A DNA stretch of 64,000 bases from Halogeometricum pallidum JCM 14848 (GTDB lineage Archaea; Halobacteriota; Halobacteria; Halobacteriales; Haloferacaceae). This document shows positions 14,112 through 59,148 of this stretch, one piece after another (the first letter of the stretch is position 1; every line of letters starts with the position of its first letter). Both the position numbers and the translations under genes were made by a program. The notes beneath the pieces were generated by a model, which worked only from the letters and a program-made list of their open reading frames with translations, was not told the origin of the DNA and did not search any database. The DNA is taken from contig NZ_AOIV01000045.1 of NCBI RefSeq assembly GCF_000337095.1, positions 62,001 through 126,000 on the forward strand, written 5' to 3'.

Positions 14112-15011
14112 ATGCCGACGATTCGCGCGAACGGGGTCGACACCTACTACGAACGTCGAGGCGACGGTCCGACGGTCGTGTTCGTCCACGCCTCGATGCT
14201 CGACCACGCCGTGTGGGACGAACAGGTCGAGGCCCTGTCGACGGACTACTCGACGGTGACGTACGACCTGCGCGGGCACGGCCGGACGGGTCGGTCCGCG
14301 GAGTCCGAGTACACGGTGGACCTCTACGTCGCGGACCTGCGCGCCCTCCTCCTCGAACTGGATATTCGAAATCCCGTCCTCTGCGGACTCTCGATGGGCG
14401 GCACGGTTGCGCTGACGTACGCGGCGACCTACCCCGACGACCTGGCCGGACTGGTGCTCGTCGACGCGTTCGCCCCGGAGTTTCGCTCCCGCGGCGAGTG
14501 GTTCCTGCGTCGCGTCGCGCTGAGCGCCCTGGTGCCGCCGGTTCGACTTCTCGGACTCGAACGCGTCGAACGGGCGAACGTCTGGCTGACCGCGCGGCTC
14601 TTCCCGGGCGCGGACGGCGACTACGAAAGCGTGGAACGCCTCCGCGAGGGGGGGCCGGGGATGGCCACCGAGGAGTTCGCGAAGGTGGTCCGGTCGATGG
14701 CGCGACCCCGGGACCCCCCGGTCGACCTCTCGACGGTGTCGGCGCCGACGCTCGTCCTCTACGGCGAACGCGACCTCCCGTTCGTCAGGCTCCACGCCGC
14801 GCGTTTCGCCGCCCACGTTCCGACCGTCGACGTGCGCGAGGTACCCGGCGCCGGCCACGCCTCGAACCTCGACGCCCCCGAGTACGTCACCGGCGCGATT
14901 CGCGACTTTCTCGAAGCGCACGCCGGGACGACGGACCGGAGCGCGGATTCGACCGACTCGAACGGGAACTCGGACGGCGCGAACGGAGGGAACGGCGGTT
15001 CGGCCGCGTAG
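14112..15011 (+). CDS. Alpha/beta-fold hydrolase
   Basis: 299 residues. The oxyanion region is VVFVHASMLDHAVWDEQVEA, the nucleophile elbow GLSMGG at about 95-100, the acid in YGERDLPF and the catalytic His in GAGHASNLDAPE. These are the complete triad of the alpha/beta hydrolase family (haloperoxidase or lactonase-like). The last 30 residues are a Ser/Asn/Gly-rich low-complexity tail (STDSNGNSDGANGGNGGSAA). It follows the SDR by 70 bases; a joint role is possible but unproven. Confidence 0.85.
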   Translation: MPTIRANGVDTYYERRGDGPTVVFVHASMLDHAVWDEQVEALSTDYSTVTYDLRGHGRTGRSAESEYTVDLYVADLRALLLELDIRNPVLCGLSMGGTVALTYAATYPDDLAGLVLVDAFAPEFRSRGEWFLRRVALSALVPPVRLLGLERVERANVWLTARLFPGADGDYESVERLREGGPGMATEEFAKVVRSMARPRDPPVDLSTVSAPTLVLYGERDLPFVRLHAARFAAHVPTVDVREVPGAGHASNLDAPEYVTGAIRDFLEAHAGTTDRSADSTDSNGNSDGANGGNGGSAA

Positions 15012-16544: not shown

Positions 16545-16776
16545 CGGGCGGTCGCCGCGACGGGTCGGCCGACCGACCACCCGTCGAGAACGCTTCCGAA
16601 CGCGCCCTCGGCCGACGTTCGTTCGAACGTTTATTTCACCATCGGTGGCCACAAGCGATTATTGATTATGGATACTCGGCCAACGTATGGCGTCCCAACT
16701 GACGGATAGTCGCGGGACCGCGAACAGGGTCACAGACCGGCCGAAACGCCCGCCTGATAGCGCTCCCCGCGGACCG

Positions 16777-16783
16777 GGAGGTG
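16777..16783 (+). promoter_or_regulatory. Strong Shine-Dalgarno site for the leader ORF
   Basis: GGAGGTG matches seven bases of the complement of the haloarchaeal 16S rRNA 3' end and sits seven bases before the ATG at 16791. Such strong sites are uncommon at haloarchaeal first genes, which are mostly leaderless. It therefore supports initiation at the 15-codon ORF rather than directly at the transporter gene. Confidence 0.5.
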
Positions 16784-16790
16784 GTAGCCG

Positions 16791-16838
16791 ATGAACCGTC
16801 GCCGCCGAGTGCGTCGCGCCGAACGGACCGGCCGATGA
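16791..16838 (+). CDS. Arginine-rich 15-residue leader ORF coupled to the ABC binding protein
   Basis: Encodes MNRRRRVRRAERTGR, eight arginines in fifteen residues. It has a strong ribosome site at ideal spacing, and its TGA overlaps the ATG of the binding-protein gene (ATGA), so ribosomes ending here could restart on the transporter. The long leader between the likely promoters (TTTATTTC near 16628 or TTATTGATTATGG near 16660) and the gene leaves room for such an element. This is my inference; the peptide may have no function and the ORF may be chance. Confidence 0.35.
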   Translation: MNRRRRVRRAERTGR

Positions 16839-18310
16839 GCGAAGAGCAGAGCGTCAGCCGACGCCGGTTCGTGAAGGCCGTCGGGGCCGGGAGCGCCGTC
16901 GCGGCGTCCAGCGTTTCCGGCTGTATCGCGCGGGCGCAGTCGGATCCGAACACGGTCCAAATCGCGGCCAACACGGACCTCAAGAACATCTCCGGACAGG
17001 TGGAAAAACAGCTGAAACGGGCCGGGATGCCCGACGAAATCTCGATAGAGATCATCGCCGGCACGGCCTCGACCGGCGCCCGTCAGCAGCAGTACAACCG
17101 GTGGCTGTCGGCGAACCTCGAACAGCCGTCGCTCCTGATGATGGACAGCGGGTGGACGATTCCGTTCATCGTCCGCGACCAACTGGCGAACCTCTCGGAG
17201 GTGATGCCCGACATCGCCGAGATGGTCAAATCGAACTACTTCCAGACGTTCACCCAGACGGCGACGAGCGAACAGGGGAATCTGCACGCGGTCCCGCTGT
17301 TCCCGACGACGGGGAACATGCTCTATCGGAAGGATTTGGTGAAAGAGGCGGGATACAGCCCCGAAAAGGAGGGGTGGGCGACGAACCCCCTCACCTGGAA
17401 GAAGTTCTCGAAGGTGACGAAAGACACCAAAAAGCAGACGGACACGAGACTGGGGTTCACCTTCCAGGGCAAATCCTACGCCGGCCTGTCCTGCTGTGAC
17501 TTCCGGGAGTTCACCGGCACCTGGGGCGGGTCGTACTTCGGTCCGAAGAAGAACCTGTTCGGTCCCGTCGGCAGGCGACCGGTCACGGTCGATTCGAAAC
17601 CCGTGGTCGACGCCACGCGAATGGTTCGGACGTTCATCGAGGCGGACGCCGACAACGCCCTGAAGTCGGTGACGGGCGGCATCTCCCCGCGGACGGTGCT
17701 GCAGTGGGAGGAGGAGTCCTCCCGGAAGCCGTTCGCCGCGGGCAACGCCGTCATGCACCGCAACTGGCCCTACGCCATCGCCATCAGCGGCGCCGAGGAC
17801 GCCTTCGGAAAGGACCTGGGCGTGATGCCCATCCCGTACGCCGTCAAGCCCGAGGAGGCGAAGTTCGACGGCTACGGCGGGTCCGTCTCGTCGCTCGGCG
17901 GATGGCACATGGCGCTGAATCCGAGCGCGAAGCAACCCGAGGCCGCCAAGGAGGTGCTCCGGGCGATGACCAAGGAGAAGTTCCAACTGTTCCTCTTCGA
18001 GACGCTCGGCTACCTCCCGCCGCGCCGGTCGCTGTTCGAGTCCCAACGGGCCAAGCAGGTCCCGGTGATGGGGCGGTACTTGGAGACGCTGAAGTACACC
18101 ATCGCACACTCCATCCCCCGCCCGGTCACCGTCGCGTGGCCCCCCGAGTCGTCGAAGATAGCACAGCAGGCGAACGCGAGTTTCAGCGGTCTCAAAGCAC
18201 CACAACGAGCGATGAACCAGCTAGCACGACAGATCGAGGAGATAGAGCAGGCCTCCAAACGAGAAGAACAGTCGCAAAACAGCGGCCGAATTGCGACCGG
18301 AGGACGGTGA
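16835..18310 (+). CDS. Carbohydrate-type ABC transporter substrate-binding lipoprotein
   Basis: 491 residues. The N terminus is a Tat signal with lipobox: SRRRFVKAVGAGSAVAASSV then SGC, so it is exported folded and lipid-anchored at about Cys28. The mature part is a family 1 (MalE-like) binding protein: YNRWLSANLEQPSLLMMDSG, NLHAVPLFPTTGNMLYRKDL, AAGNAVMHRNWPYAIA and GGWHMALNPSAKQPEAAKEV are all typical of sugar-binding proteins. First gene of a four-gene importer operon with two permeases and an ATPase. Start 16835 gives a correct signal peptide; a GTG at 16781 in frame would add 18 residues and is disfavoured. Exact sugar unknown. Confidence 0.9.
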   Translation: MSEEQSVSRRRFVKAVGAGSAVAASSVSGCIARAQSDPNTVQIAANTDLKNISGQVEKQLKRAGMPDEISIEIIAGTASTGARQQQYNRWLSANLEQPSLLMMDSGWTIPFIVRDQLANLSEVMPDIAEMVKSNYFQTFTQTATSEQGNLHAVPLFPTTGNMLYRKDLVKEAGYSPEKEGWATNPLTWKKFSKVTKDTKKQTDTRLGFTFQGKSYAGLSCCDFREFTGTWGGSYFGPKKNLFGPVGRRPVTVDSKPVVDATRMVRTFIEADADNALKSVTGGISPRTVLQWEEESSRKPFAAGNAVMHRNWPYAIAISGAEDAFGKDLGVMPIPYAVKPEEAKFDGYGGSVSSLGGWHMALNPSAKQPEAAKEVLRAMTKEKFQLFLFETLGYLPPRRSLFESQRAKQVPVMGRYLETLKYTIAHSIPRPVTVAWPPESSKIAQQANASFSGLKAPQRAMNQLARQIEEIEQASKREEQSQNSGRIATGGR

Positions 18311-18316
18311 CTCTCG

Positions 18317-19312
18317 ATGTCGGCCGAAACCGGCGGGTCGCAGTCGCAATCGAGGAGCGATTCCTCGGGGATGTTCGCCAGCGGTCAGCGCTGGGTGGAG
18401 AACCTCAGCGACACGCAGTTCGCCTACCTGCTGCTCGCGCCGTCGCTGCTGCTGTTCGCCGTCATCGCCTTCTGGCCGCTGGCGCGGACGTTCCAGATGT
18501 CGCTGTACGCCAACTCGCTGTACGGCGCCGACCGACTGGGCGAGTTCGTCGGGTTCTCGAACTACGTGAGGCTCCTGACGGGCGACCTGAACTCCTCGCT
18601 CCCCCGGCCGTTTCTCGACCTGAGCCAACCGTTCACGAGCGCCGTCACCGTCACGCTCATCTTCACCGTGGTGAGCGTCGTCTTCGAGACGATAATCGGC
18701 TTCGGGCAGGCGATCATCCTGAACCAGGACTTCCGCGGTCGGCGCTGGGTCCGCGTCGCCATCATCCTCCCGTGGGCCGTGCCCATCGTCATCCAAGGGA
18801 TGATCTTCTACCTGCTGTTCCAGCCGACGGTCGGGTTCCTCGTCGAACCGCTCCACCAGTTGGGGCTTTTCTCGACGACGCCGCAGGCCAACAGCATGGA
18901 CTCGCTCATCATCGTCATCGTCGCCGACGTGTGGAAGACGTCGGCGTTCATGGCGCTCATCATCCTCGCCGGTCTCCAGAGCGTCAACCGCTCGCTGTAC
19001 GACGTGGCGAAAGTGTCGGGCGCCTCGAAGTTCGAGGCGTTCAAGACGGTGACGCTGCCGCTGGTGCTCCCGTCGGTGCTGGTCGCGATGCTGTTCCGCA
19101 CCATCGGCGCGATGCGCGTCTACGGTCTCATCACAACGGTGTCCTCGTGCAACACGGTGCCGTCGCTGTCGTGTCTGGTGGTCCAGACGTTCAGCACGAG
19201 TCGGTACGCCGCCGCCGCCGCCGTCGCGTTCGTCACCGCGGCGCTCATCGGACTGGTCGTGATGGTGTACATCGTCAAATTCGCCGACGTGCAGGGCTCG
19301 GGGGGGATCTGA
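18317..19312 (+). CDS. Sugar ABC transporter permease, MalF/UgpA type
   Basis: 331 residues, six or so transmembrane helices starting with AYLLLAPSLLLFAVIAFWPL. The EAA loop reads DVAKVSGASKFEAFKTVTLP near residue 235, the site that contacts the ATPase. The N-terminal 25 residues are hydrophilic. It lies six bases after the binding protein and one base before the second permease, so the operon is tightly packed. It forms the membrane channel together with the next gene. Confidence 0.92.
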   Translation: MSAETGGSQSQSRSDSSGMFASGQRWVENLSDTQFAYLLLAPSLLLFAVIAFWPLARTFQMSLYANSLYGADRLGEFVGFSNYVRLLTGDLNSSLPRPFLDLSQPFTSAVTVTLIFTVVSVVFETIIGFGQAIILNQDFRGRRWVRVAIILPWAVPIVIQGMIFYLLFQPTVGFLVEPLHQLGLFSTTPQANSMDSLIIVIVADVWKTSAFMALIILAGLQSVNRSLYDVAKVSGASKFEAFKTVTLPLVLPSVLVAMLFRTIGAMRVYGLITTVSSCNTVPSLSCLVVQTFSTSRYAAAAAVAFVTAALIGLVVMVYIVKFADVQGSGGI

Positions 19313-19313
19313 G

Positions 19314-20240
19314 ATGAGCAACAGCGAAGGGAACGCGCTTCAGCGGTGGGCCAGCCGGTCCATCTCGAACCCCGAGCGGACGTACAAGGCGCTGTTCTAC
19401 GTCCTCACCGGGGTGTTCCTGTTCACCACGCTGTTCCCGTTCTACTGGCTGTTGGTGCTGGCGCTGACGCCGAGCGGAAACATGATAGACGTGGGGCTGC
19501 TGCCGAACGGGTTCAACCCGGAGGCGTTCGTGACGGTGTTCACGCGCGTGCCGTTCCACCTCTACATCCTCAACAGCCTCATCATCGGCGTCGTCACGAC
19601 GGCCATCGTGTTGGTGCTGGCGAGTTTCGCGGGCTACGCGTTCGGGCGCTTCGAGTTCCCCGGCCGCAGACCGCTCATGCTCGTCTTCCTCGCCATCTCG
19701 TACTTCCCGCCGGCGGCGTTCCTGCTGCCGCTGTTCCGCCTGTTCACGGCGAACATCACGTTCTTCACCCTTCCCGGGGTCGGAACGGTGAACAGTCCGA
19801 TGCTGTTCAACGGACCGGGAGCGATGATGCTGCCGTACACGGCGCTGTTCATGCCGCTGGCAATCTTCATCCTGACGACGTTCTACAGCCAGATTCCGGA
19901 CGGATTAGAGGACGCCGCACGCGTCGAGGGCAACACCCGCTTCGGCGCGCTGTTCAAAGTCATCATGCCCCTCTCGGCCCCCGGCGTGGCCACCGCGGGC
20001 GTGCTGACGTTCATCTCGGTGTACAACGAGTTCTTCTTCGCGTTCCTGATGACCGACGGGCGGGTCCAGAACTGGGCGACCATCGTCTGGGGCCTCCTCA
20101 GCTATCAGGGGCGCTACGCCACGTCGTACAACCTCATGGCGGCGGCGAGCATCCTCGGGGTCATCCCCATCGCGATTCTCGTCGTCGTCGCACAGGAGAA
20201 AATTGTCAGCGGTCTGACCTCGGGTGCGCTCAAGGAGTAA
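19314..20240 (+). CDS. Sugar ABC transporter permease, MalG/UgpE type
   Basis: 308 residues with six predicted helices (first: FYVLTGVFLFTTLFPFYWLL). The EAA loop is DAARVEGNTRFGALFKVIMP, followed by LSAPGVATAGVLTFISVYNE, the MalG-type C-terminal signature. It is one base behind the MalF-type partner and four bases ahead of the ATPase gene. The two permeases plus a dimer of the ATPase should make a CUT1-type importer. Confidence 0.92.
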   Translation: MSNSEGNALQRWASRSISNPERTYKALFYVLTGVFLFTTLFPFYWLLVLALTPSGNMIDVGLLPNGFNPEAFVTVFTRVPFHLYILNSLIIGVVTTAIVLVLASFAGYAFGRFEFPGRRPLMLVFLAISYFPPAAFLLPLFRLFTANITFFTLPGVGTVNSPMLFNGPGAMMLPYTALFMPLAIFILTTFYSQIPDGLEDAARVEGNTRFGALFKVIMPLSAPGVATAGVLTFISVYNEFFFAFLMTDGRVQNWATIVWGLLSYQGRYATSYNLMAAASILGVIPIAILVVVAQEKIVSGLTSGALKE

Positions 20241-20244
20241 CACA

Positions 20245-21588
20245 ATGGGAGACGTAACTTACGAAGACATCACGAAGAAGTACGATGACGTAACGGCCGT
20301 CGACAACCTCAACCTCGAAATCAAGGACGGCGAGTTCGTCACGCTCGTCGGCCCCTCGGGGTGCGGCAAATCCACGTCGCTGGAGATGGCGGCGGGACTC
20401 ACCGAACCCACCTCGGGGAACCTGTACATCAACAACGAGGAGGTGTCGGACCTGCCGCCGAAAGACCGCGACATCGCGATGGTGTTTCAGAACATCGCGC
20501 TGTTCCCGCACATGGACGTCTACGACAACATCTCGTACGGCCTCCGCCTGCGGGACTTCGAGAAAGAGGAGATAGACCGTCGGGTCGAGGAGGCGGCCGA
20601 ACTCGTCCAGATGAGCGGCATGCTCGACCGGATGCCCGACGAGATGTCCGGCGGGCAGCGACAGCGAGTCGCCATCGCCCGCGCCATCGTTCGAGACCCG
20701 GAGGTGTTCCTGATGGACGAACCCCTCGCCAACCTCGACGCGAAACTCCGCGTCCACATGCGGACGAAACTGCAGGAACTCCACAAACAACTGGACGCGA
20801 CCATCATCTACGTCACGCACAACCAGGAGGAGGCGATGACGATGTCGAGTCGCATCGCGGTGATGAACCACGGGGAACTCCAGCAGTTCGACGCCCCCCT
20901 GACGTGCTACTACCGCCCGACGAACGAGTTCGTCGCGGGCTTCATCGGGTCGCCGTCGATGAACTTCATCGACGGGCGCGTGACCGACGAGGGCGTCGAG
21001 ACGGACGAGTTCTCACTCGACGTCGACGACGGCGTCCTCGGCGACGTCGAGACGGGCAAGCGCGTCACCGTCGGCGTCCGCCCCGAGGATATCTACCTCG
21101 CGGAGGGGGCAGACATCGAGGACGACCAGGGACCGGTCGGCGCCGCCGACGCCGCCGACATGGACGGTCAGCCGTCGGCGCCCATCGACGTGACGACGAC
21201 GGTGCTCGAACCCGTCGGCGACGACATCTACGTCTACGCGGAGTTCGGCGACGGGACCGGGGAGTCGTCCGTCGACGACGGCGGGATATCCGGCCCCGCC
21301 ACCGATGACGAGGGGGCGGCGGACGAGGGCGGCCCGATGGGCGAGTCGACGTTGCTGATGAGCATGCCGCCGATTCCGGACATGGACACCGACGCGGCCG
21401 AGGGACAGCGAACGCAGGTCGTCCTCGACCGCACCATGGTCCACCTGTTCGACGGCGAGACGGGCGACGCCATCGTCCACGGCCTGACGACGGAGTCCGG
21501 CGCGGGCCAAAGCCGACGGAACCGGGGCGAACCGGTCGAACGGACCGGACAGAGCGGTCCGAGCGCCTCCGAGAGCAACGCTCGCTGA
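20245..21588 (+). CDS. Sugar ABC transporter ATP-binding protein, MalK/UgpC type
   Basis: 447 residues. Walker A GPSGCGKST at about 37-45, Q-loop in VFQNIALFPHMDV, signature MSGGQRQRVAIARA, Walker B VFLMDEPLANLD and switch His in VTHNQEEAM. The C-terminal regulatory OB-type domain (VGVRPEDIYLAEGADIED onward) is interrupted by a long acidic and glycine-rich insertion (about 345-385), making it longer than the usual 370 residues. A hydrophilic tail follows. Last gene of the importer operon. Homologous to the XacJ/XacK and TsgD ATPases of Haloferax; the sugar cannot be named. Confidence 0.93.
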   Translation: MGDVTYEDITKKYDDVTAVDNLNLEIKDGEFVTLVGPSGCGKSTSLEMAAGLTEPTSGNLYINNEEVSDLPPKDRDIAMVFQNIALFPHMDVYDNISYGLRLRDFEKEEIDRRVEEAAELVQMSGMLDRMPDEMSGGQRQRVAIARAIVRDPEVFLMDEPLANLDAKLRVHMRTKLQELHKQLDATIIYVTHNQEEAMTMSSRIAVMNHGELQQFDAPLTCYYRPTNEFVAGFIGSPSMNFIDGRVTDEGVETDEFSLDVDDGVLGDVETGKRVTVGVRPEDIYLAEGADIEDDQGPVGAADAADMDGQPSAPIDVTTTVLEPVGDDIYVYAEFGDGTGESSVDDGGISGPATDDEGAADEGGPMGESTLLMSMPPIPDMDTDAAEGQRTQVVLDRTMVHLFDGETGDAIVHGLTTESGAGQSRRNRGEPVERTGQSGPSASESNAR

Positions 21589-57672: not shown

Positions 57673-57873
57673 ATTCTCTCGCCCGAACCGGCTGCTCTTC
57701 CCCGCCTTCCTCCGCCCGCCGACCACACCGGCGGTGTCCCCGTCTCGAAACGGACCGTTCGAGGCTCGACGCCGTGGTTCACCTCTTCCCGCGTTCACGC
57801 TGACTGTGTTACATCTCCTGTAGTGGTCCTCCGGAACAATGATGATTAATGCGGTTCAATCACGACGGAGTGC

Positions 57874-58950
57874 ATGAACTCCACGGAGTTGCGTGACGCC
57901 CTCGAGGACGCGGGGCTCTCGCAGTACCAAGCGGAGGCGTACAACACCCTCCTGCAGTTAGGCACCGCCAGCGCCACGGAGTTGGCCGACGCCTGCGCGG
58001 TCCCCACCGCGCGCATCTACGACGTGCTCAGAGACTTAGAAGCGAAGGGGTACATCGAGACGTACGAGCAGGACAGCCTGCACGCGCGGGCGTGCGACCC
58101 GGAGACCGTCCTCGACGACTTCCGCGACCGCGCGACGATGCTGGAGACGGCGGCCGACGAGATAGAGGACCGCTGGGAAGAACCCGAAGTCGACCGGCAC
58201 ATGCTGAGCATCGTCAAGCGGTTCGACACGGTGCTCCAACGCGCCGCGTCGTTCATCCGCGACGCGGAGAACGAGGTGCAGTTGTCGGCGACGCCCGAAC
58301 AGTACGAGAAGCTCCGGCCCGCACTCCGGGAGGCGTACGAGAACGACGCCATCGTGAAGGTGTCGCTGCACACCGACCCCGACGCCGACCCCTCGGCGTT
58401 CGACGTCGCCGACTTCGAGGGCGTCGTCACCGAGGCCCGCCACCGAACGCTGCCGACGCCGTTCGTCCTCCTCGTCGACCGGACCGGGACCTGCTTTGCG
58501 CCCCACGCGAACTCGCTGAACCAGTACGGGGTGTTGGTCAACGACTACACGCTCACGTACGTCTTCCACTGGTACTTTCAGACCTGTCTGTGGGAGGTGT
58601 GGGACGTCGTCTACGCCGAGGGGGACGACGACCCGCCGTTCGTCTTCGCCGACATCCGTCGGTGTGTCCGCACCATCGAACCCTCCTTCTCCGCGGGGGC
58701 GACCGTCCGCGCGTCGGTGACGGGGTTCGACACTGCGACCGGCGCGGCCGTCGAGCTCTCGGGAGACATCGTCGAACTCCACTACTCGGGCGCGGCGGAG
58801 ACAGACGGGACGCCCGCCCTCTCGCAGTTGGCCGGGCAGGTGTGTTTCACCCTCCGAACCGACGAGGGGTCCTACAGCGTCGGCGGTTGGGGGGCCGTCC
58901 TCGAAGAGGTGGAAGCGACGCGCGTGACTATCACCGGCGTGGTGGAGTGA
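57874..58950 (+). CDS. TrmB-family transcriptional regulator
   Basis: 358 residues. N-terminal HTH AGLSQYQAEAYNTLLQLGTA and CAVPTARIYDVLRDLEAKGY, a short coiled linker (MLETAADEIEDRWEEPEVDR), then a TrmB effector domain: a phospholipase D-like part (IRDAENEVQLSATPEQYEKL; LPTPFVLLVDRTGTCFAPHA) and a C-terminal beta domain. TrmB regulators sense sugars; Halobacterium TrmB controls glycolysis and gluconeogenesis. Whether this is that orthologue or a local paralogue is undecided. No sugar genes adjoin it; a DNA site search would be needed. Single gene. Confidence 0.88.
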   Translation: MNSTELRDALEDAGLSQYQAEAYNTLLQLGTASATELADACAVPTARIYDVLRDLEAKGYIETYEQDSLHARACDPETVLDDFRDRATMLETAADEIEDRWEEPEVDRHMLSIVKRFDTVLQRAASFIRDAENEVQLSATPEQYEKLRPALREAYENDAIVKVSLHTDPDADPSAFDVADFEGVVTEARHRTLPTPFVLLVDRTGTCFAPHANSLNQYGVLVNDYTLTYVFHWYFQTCLWEVWDVVYAEGDDDPPFVFADIRRCVRTIEPSFSAGATVRASVTGFDTATGAAVELSGDIVELHYSGAAETDGTPALSQLAGQVCFTLRTDEGSYSVGGWGAVLEEVEATRVTITGVVE

Positions 58951-59034: not shown

Positions 59035-59148
59035 ATGTGGACCGGAACCAATACGTTCACGTCAGACGGAATAAGGGGTATCTTGATATGCCCACGCGAT
59101 TCATTCGATGACGTGCGTGTTCCGGGAACACCACGGACATACAAATGA
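59035..59148 (+). CDS. 37-residue upstream ORF coupled to the HalX response regulator
   Basis: Reads MWTGTNTFTSDGIRGILICP then RDSFDDVRVPGTPRTYK and ends at a TGA that overlaps the ATG of the response regulator (ATGA). It is the first AUG after the likely promoter. Codon choice is less GC3-biased than in neighbouring genes. May be a translated leader that couples or throttles regulator synthesis, or a chance open frame in an unusually long 5' leader. No known family. Confidence 0.35.
   Translation: MWTGTNTFTSDGIRGILICPRDSFDDVRVPGTPRTYK

Follow-up and report, generated by a model that had tools for sequence, protein, structure and literature searches.

We analysed a 64,000-nt stretch of the Halogeometricum pallidum JCM 14848 genome (the window), in which an ABC importer operon on the forward strand is preceded by two consecutive short open reading frames (ORFs). 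The operon begins with a CUT1-type solute-binding protein gene with a Tat lipoprotein-like signal (16835..18310; Pfam SBP_bac_8/SBP_bac_1). Its stop is followed after 6 nt by permease 1 (18317..19312; BPD_transp_1), after a further 1 nt by permease 2 (19314..20240; BPD_transp_1) and 4 nt later by a MalK/UgpC-like ATPase (20245..21588; ABC_tran, OB_MalK). The nearest solved relative of the binding protein is the trehalose/maltose-binding protein 1eu8, and the best NCBIfam match of the ATPase is UgpC, below threshold; the cargo looks to be a sugar. From 5' to 3', the chain runs from a predicted promoter through ORF1, an RTGA joint, ORF2 and an ATGA joint to the binding protein, the permeases and the ATPase.

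Directly before the binding-protein gene lies ORF2 (16791..16838, forward strand), which spans 15 codons from its ATG at 16791 to a TGA at 16836-16838 and encodes MNRRRRVRRAERTGR, with arginine at 8 of 15 residues. A Shine-Dalgarno (SD) motif, GGAGGTG (16777..16783), matches the anti-SD over 7 nt and is separated from this ATG by a 7-nt spacer; a 4-nt ATGA (16835..16838) joins the ORF2 stop to the binding-protein ATG at 16835. The 16S 3' end, GGCTGGATCACCTCCT, was found in the sister genomes G003 and G004 but not in those of the window's own species (G000) or of G001, whose assemblies may lack it. A sequence-only reading of this stretch had described the arginine-rich ORF, the seven-base SD seven bases before its ATG and the overlap with the binding-protein gene, all of which we could reproduce. 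That description was incomplete, as the ORF2 ATG is itself overlapped by the TGA of an upstream 35-codon frame, ORF1 (16687..16794, forward strand; MASQLTDSRGTANRVTDRPKRPPDSAPRGPGGGSR), creating two consecutive ATGA joints, the first at 16791..16794. The SD thus falls within the 3' end of ORF1.

Translation of ORF1 is predicted to be leaderless. A TTAT (TATA-type) box (16659..16662) starts 28 nt 5' of its ATG, at the same distance in all four species compared below, and fits the TTWT motif of haloarchaeal promoters; in Haloferax volcanii, 72% of protein-coding transcripts are leaderless (PMC4983044). A second box, TTTATTT (16630..16636, within an AT-rich segment at 16626-16640), lies 57 nt upstream of ORF1 as a candidate alternative promoter element or regulator site, and is complete in three of the four species and partial in the fourth. 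Transcription directed by this box could start ~30 nt upstream of ORF1, rather than within the 0-5 nt that characterise leaderless coupled small ORFs, and give it a short leader, under which the relay proposed below would still hold. Between the start codons of ORF1 and the binding-protein gene the T content is only 10.5%, and we rejected a leaderless promoter just before the binding-protein gene, as the window has no AT-rich box at promoter distance from its ATG. The operon therefore probably has its leaderless start at ORF1, judging from these sequence features, and the SD inside ORF1 can serve reinitiation on ORF2. The earlier suggestion that an SD-led leader ORF replaces the leaderless start looks like a misreading of this arrangement.

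Conservation of the two joints within Halogeometricum

Five members of the genus were examined, four of which carry the orthologous operon; the only counterpart in the fifth is a more distantly related paralogue. Identity to the window's binding protein is 88, 87 and 74% in the three other orthologues, and their leader DNA has identities of 76, 63 and 56% to the window's. In all four operons the double chain is kept, with both joints forming a 4-nt stop/start overlap (RTGA) as in termination-reinitiation pairs. Taking the species in the order G000, G004, G003 and G001, ORF1 has 35, 36, 36 and 36 codons and is open throughout, and ORF2 has 15, 23, 20 and 20 codons, its stop lying in each species within the ATGA that opens the next gene. 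Start-to-start distances are 104, 107, 107 and 107 nt across the first joint and 44, 68, 59 and 59 nt across the second, and change only by threes. The first joint reads ATGA, GTGA, ATGA and GTGA, and the second is ATGA in every species. Only the window's species has a strong SD at the first joint; the relatives have weaker GGTG-type versions, and none of the four species has an SD at the second. Thus, coupling to the importer, for which loss of the mini-ORF among related operons had been set in advance as the refuting outcome, is supported by retention of both the mini-ORF and its ATGA in four of four operons. The arginine run, which was to be compared in the same way, fared differently, its positions drifting between species. 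A DNA search of 20 genomes for copies of the leader returned the sister operons only, plus two short weak matches (~45 bp).

Such an arrangement might have been inherited without function, given that the GC-rich DNA (~70% G+C) is poor in stops and its frames are fairly open; a double chain that is not conserved does exist in Halorussus salinisoli. We simulated neutral drift from one ancestor at the observed divergence for each of the three relatives. When only substitutions were allowed, 15.3, 4.6 and 2.5% of runs ended with the double chain intact; adding random-length indels lowered these shares to 3.4, 1.1 and 0.6%. It is therefore unlikely that drift alone kept both joints in four species. 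Multiplying the rates gives 1.7e-4 (substitutions) and 2.4e-6 (with indels), values that make the result look stronger than it is: the sample is small, four species of one genus with common ancestry, and since the relatives have branches in common, the three rates cannot be treated as independent. As a control set we used 50 window genes and the syntenic stretches of the three relatives. In the window's genome, short ORFs of 12 codons or more are joined by RTGA to 7 of the 50 genes, and a double chain precedes only one, the binding-protein gene. Chance inheritance would also leave this gene uncoupled, lacking both an SD and a promoter box close by, and we regard it as very unlikely.

Two other short ORFs in the window are joined to regulatory genes. 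One (57839-57877; MMINAVQSRRSA) shares an ATGA with the start, at 57874, of a gene for a TrmB-like regulator and is kept in G003 and G004. The other, a 37-codon ORF (59035-59148), is ATGA-joined to a response-regulator-like gene at 59145, and its length is the same in G003 and G004.

Peptide drift and alternative readings of the leader

To ask what the genus retains, we compared geometry and peptide. Across the six species pairs, ORF1 substitutions at codon positions 1/2/3 number 10/8/13, 9/12/18, 15/15/18, 13/14/18, 12/21/20 and 15/18/22; there is no strong third-position excess and therefore little peptide constraint. In ORF2, arginine makes up 53, 43, 30 and 35% of residues in the four species, compared with an average of 13.5% for mini-ORFs of 12-25 codons, and the arginine positions do not align. 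A share of 8/15 is reached by ~1% of mini-ORFs of 12-25 codons. Among all stop-free 15-codon stretches in the six frames of the window, 3.2% have the same count, and composition therefore explains part of the arginine richness. The linkage is accordingly conserved more than the peptide in the four species, which is the pattern that marks leaderless coupled small ORFs. From these comparisons, selection seems to act on translation and coupling rather than on an arginine sensor, and the ORF1 and ORF2 peptides are probably by-products.

An alternative start for the binding protein was also considered. An in-frame GTG (16781 in the window) lies within the GGTG core in each of the four species, and the N-terminal extension that it would add is open in all of them; ORF1 and ORF2 would then be chance frames, and the core would be kept as a start codon. 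However, the protein is conserved from the ATG onwards but not before it, and the extension would lengthen the Tat n-region to ~25-33 residues. This reading also leaves the kept RTGA joints and the ORF1 frame unexplained, and we consider it very improbable.

The sequence-only reading had suggested that the leader could couple or attenuate synthesis of the importer, for example through ribosomes stalling on arginine codons. Under this alternative, stalling on ORF2 when charged arginyl-tRNA is low would alter expression of the operon, much as in the polycysteine attenuators of mycobacteria. The elevated arginine share in all four species is in its favour, as is the use of some less common arginine codons (CGT, CGA). 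Amino-acid attenuators have conserved codons that match the function of their operon, whereas here the arginine positions drift, the importer is of a sugar type and arginine-rich frames are common in the DNA of the window. Nor does the leader contain the alternative RNA structures or terminator of an attenuator: its fold is no better than that of shuffled sequences (z-score 0.29), its alignment gives no covariation gain and it lacks a U-run, the longest T run being 1. We rejected an RNA-structure reading on these grounds, and arginine-responsive stalling appears very improbable. A functional small protein made from ORF1 or ORF2, with the coupling incidental, is highly improbable: the frames are kept in four species, but ORF1 has no strong third-position excess, the sequences and the ORF2 length drift, and the peptides are basic and arginine-rich, in contrast to the low isoelectric points reported for Haloferax upstream ORFs (uORFs; PMC4983044).

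A proposed two-step relay

Having weighed these alternatives, we propose that the leader is a two-step termination-reinitiation relay that feeds the importer operon, a reading that we hold to be probable from the sequence and its comparison. The TTAT box would direct RNA polymerase to start at 16687 or no more than a few bases away, and a ribosome would initiate on the leaderless ORF1 ATG. It would terminate at the ATGA at 16791-16794 and reinitiate on ORF2, aided by the GGAGGTG inside ORF1, and 15 codons later would terminate at the ATGA at 16835-16838 and reinitiate on the binding-protein gene. From there, the closely spaced genes would carry it through the permeases and the ATPase. ORF1 would be the sole ribosome entry into the importer mRNA, and each handover would set or throttle the yield.

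Work on Haloferax volcanii provides precedents for such handovers. The ATGA pairs tested in that species are strictly coupled, and SD motifs there do not start translation de novo (PMC6728339); removal of the SD lowered reinitiation by ~80% in two and ~50% in three of seven pairs (PMC6728339). These results account for an SD in the leader: Haloferax SDs aid reinitiation at ATGA overlaps rather than de novo starts, and this one lies in ORF1, where it can serve the first handover. The second joint can do without one because such coupling does not require an SD. Coupling does require overlaps or very short distances, falling to about zero at a spacing of 22-23 nt (PMC10666635). These pairs share with the leader a 4-nt RTGA overlap and a haloarchaeal host (PMC6728339, PMC10666635). 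An SD in the upstream ORF, common but not essential in such pairs, is seen in the leader at the first joint and not at the second. Their partners are ordinary genes, whereas here two serial mini-ORFs lead into an operon. A 2025 review has suggested that short ORFs may 'deliver' the ribosome to a coupled gene (PMC12548453).

Other known systems resemble the leader in part. Mycobacterial leaderless small ORFs likewise lie at the 5' end and have an RTGA joint to an annotated gene, and their linkage was described as more strongly selected than the peptide (PMC4633059); the present case is archaeal, has a relay of two ORFs rather than one, and has a leaderless start that is predicted rather than mapped. 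The mycobacterial polycysteine attenuators (Canestrari 2020, cited in PMC9094748) are likewise leaderless ORFs rich in one residue before an operon. Their cysteine codons go with cysteine-responsive regulation, whereas here arginine is unmatched to the sugar-type cargo and its positions are not conserved. Sixteen candidate uORFs of 15-31 residues were reported in long 5'-UTRs upstream of Haloferax volcanii genes, one of them before the ABC transport protein dppA15 (PMC4983044, Table 2); as far as the consulted portion of that report extends, it describes low isoelectric points and no tandem RTGA chaining. Our search of the literature, which was incomplete, turned up no account of an archaeal relay in tandem.

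If the relay is real, the ribosome entry of a haloarchaeal importer operon would be a mini-ORF of a kind often missed by gene finders, and a reporter fused directly at the binding-protein ATG would give almost no signal. The leader would also be a natural test case for serial termination-reinitiation in an archaeal setting, in which SDs seem inactive de novo, and would allow one to ask whether handovers act as a dial of gene expression.

Other genera and parallel cases

To place the arrangement among haloarchaea, we collected 80 homologues from named haloarchaeal records of other genera. An all-A/T hexamer lies 25-33 nt before an in-frame binding-protein ATG in 50 of the 80, compared with 8-11 at control offsets, and a direct leaderless start of the binding protein is therefore probably the usual state. 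None of the homologues outside the genus has a conserved double chain, and in the nearest outgroup (G030) a 24-codon ORF overlaps the binding-protein start by 14 nt rather than through an RTGA joint. The relay was probably derived in this clade, as far as these comparisons indicate. The Halorussus salinisoli homologue (L048:7805-7968) has a double chain of its own, with frames of 35 and 19 codons, the second starting at a GTG preceded by AAGGAGG. The closest relative that we found (L136, 74%) lacks one, illustrating that such chains can also appear without being kept.

A parallel was found in Halorubrum, at trmB-like genes near sugar ABC operons, and differs from the importer case in both gene and genus. 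Nine of ten such genes have an RTGA-joined ATG uORF of 15-50 codons (minus strand; L096, L102, L103, L106, L107, L108, L109, L112 and L114), located ~3.5 kb from the right end of the locus (~1.1 kb in L096); the tenth, in Halorubrum aidingense (L100), has no such uORF. A TTTTAT-type box lies ~28 nt upstream of these uORFs, and their peptides differ greatly and are often arginine-rich. In the haloarchaeal DNA surveyed, RTGA joints were more frequent at TATA-preceded short ORFs (14/29 versus 113/628, p=0.0003, with orthologues not collapsed), but counting per gene family gave 6/13 versus 48/150 (p=0.36), and a general excess is not established. A broader proposal, which we offer only tentatively and regard as doubtful, is that haloarchaea repeatedly use leaderless mini-ORFs free of sequence constraint, single or serial, to deliver ribosomes in place of a 5'-UTR. 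Sugar-uptake operons and TrmB-type regulators would have their output set in this way, with the number of handovers over RTGA joints serving as an evolvable translational throttle.

A further arginine-rich frame was seen in Halapricum hydrolyticum (L091, minus strand, position 14269), where a 31-codon ORF with a TATA-like box (MPWRKPSRNTRSRLPRTAPDSRLRRSRPPGR) is RTGA-joined to an apparent FtsZ/tubulin-family gene.
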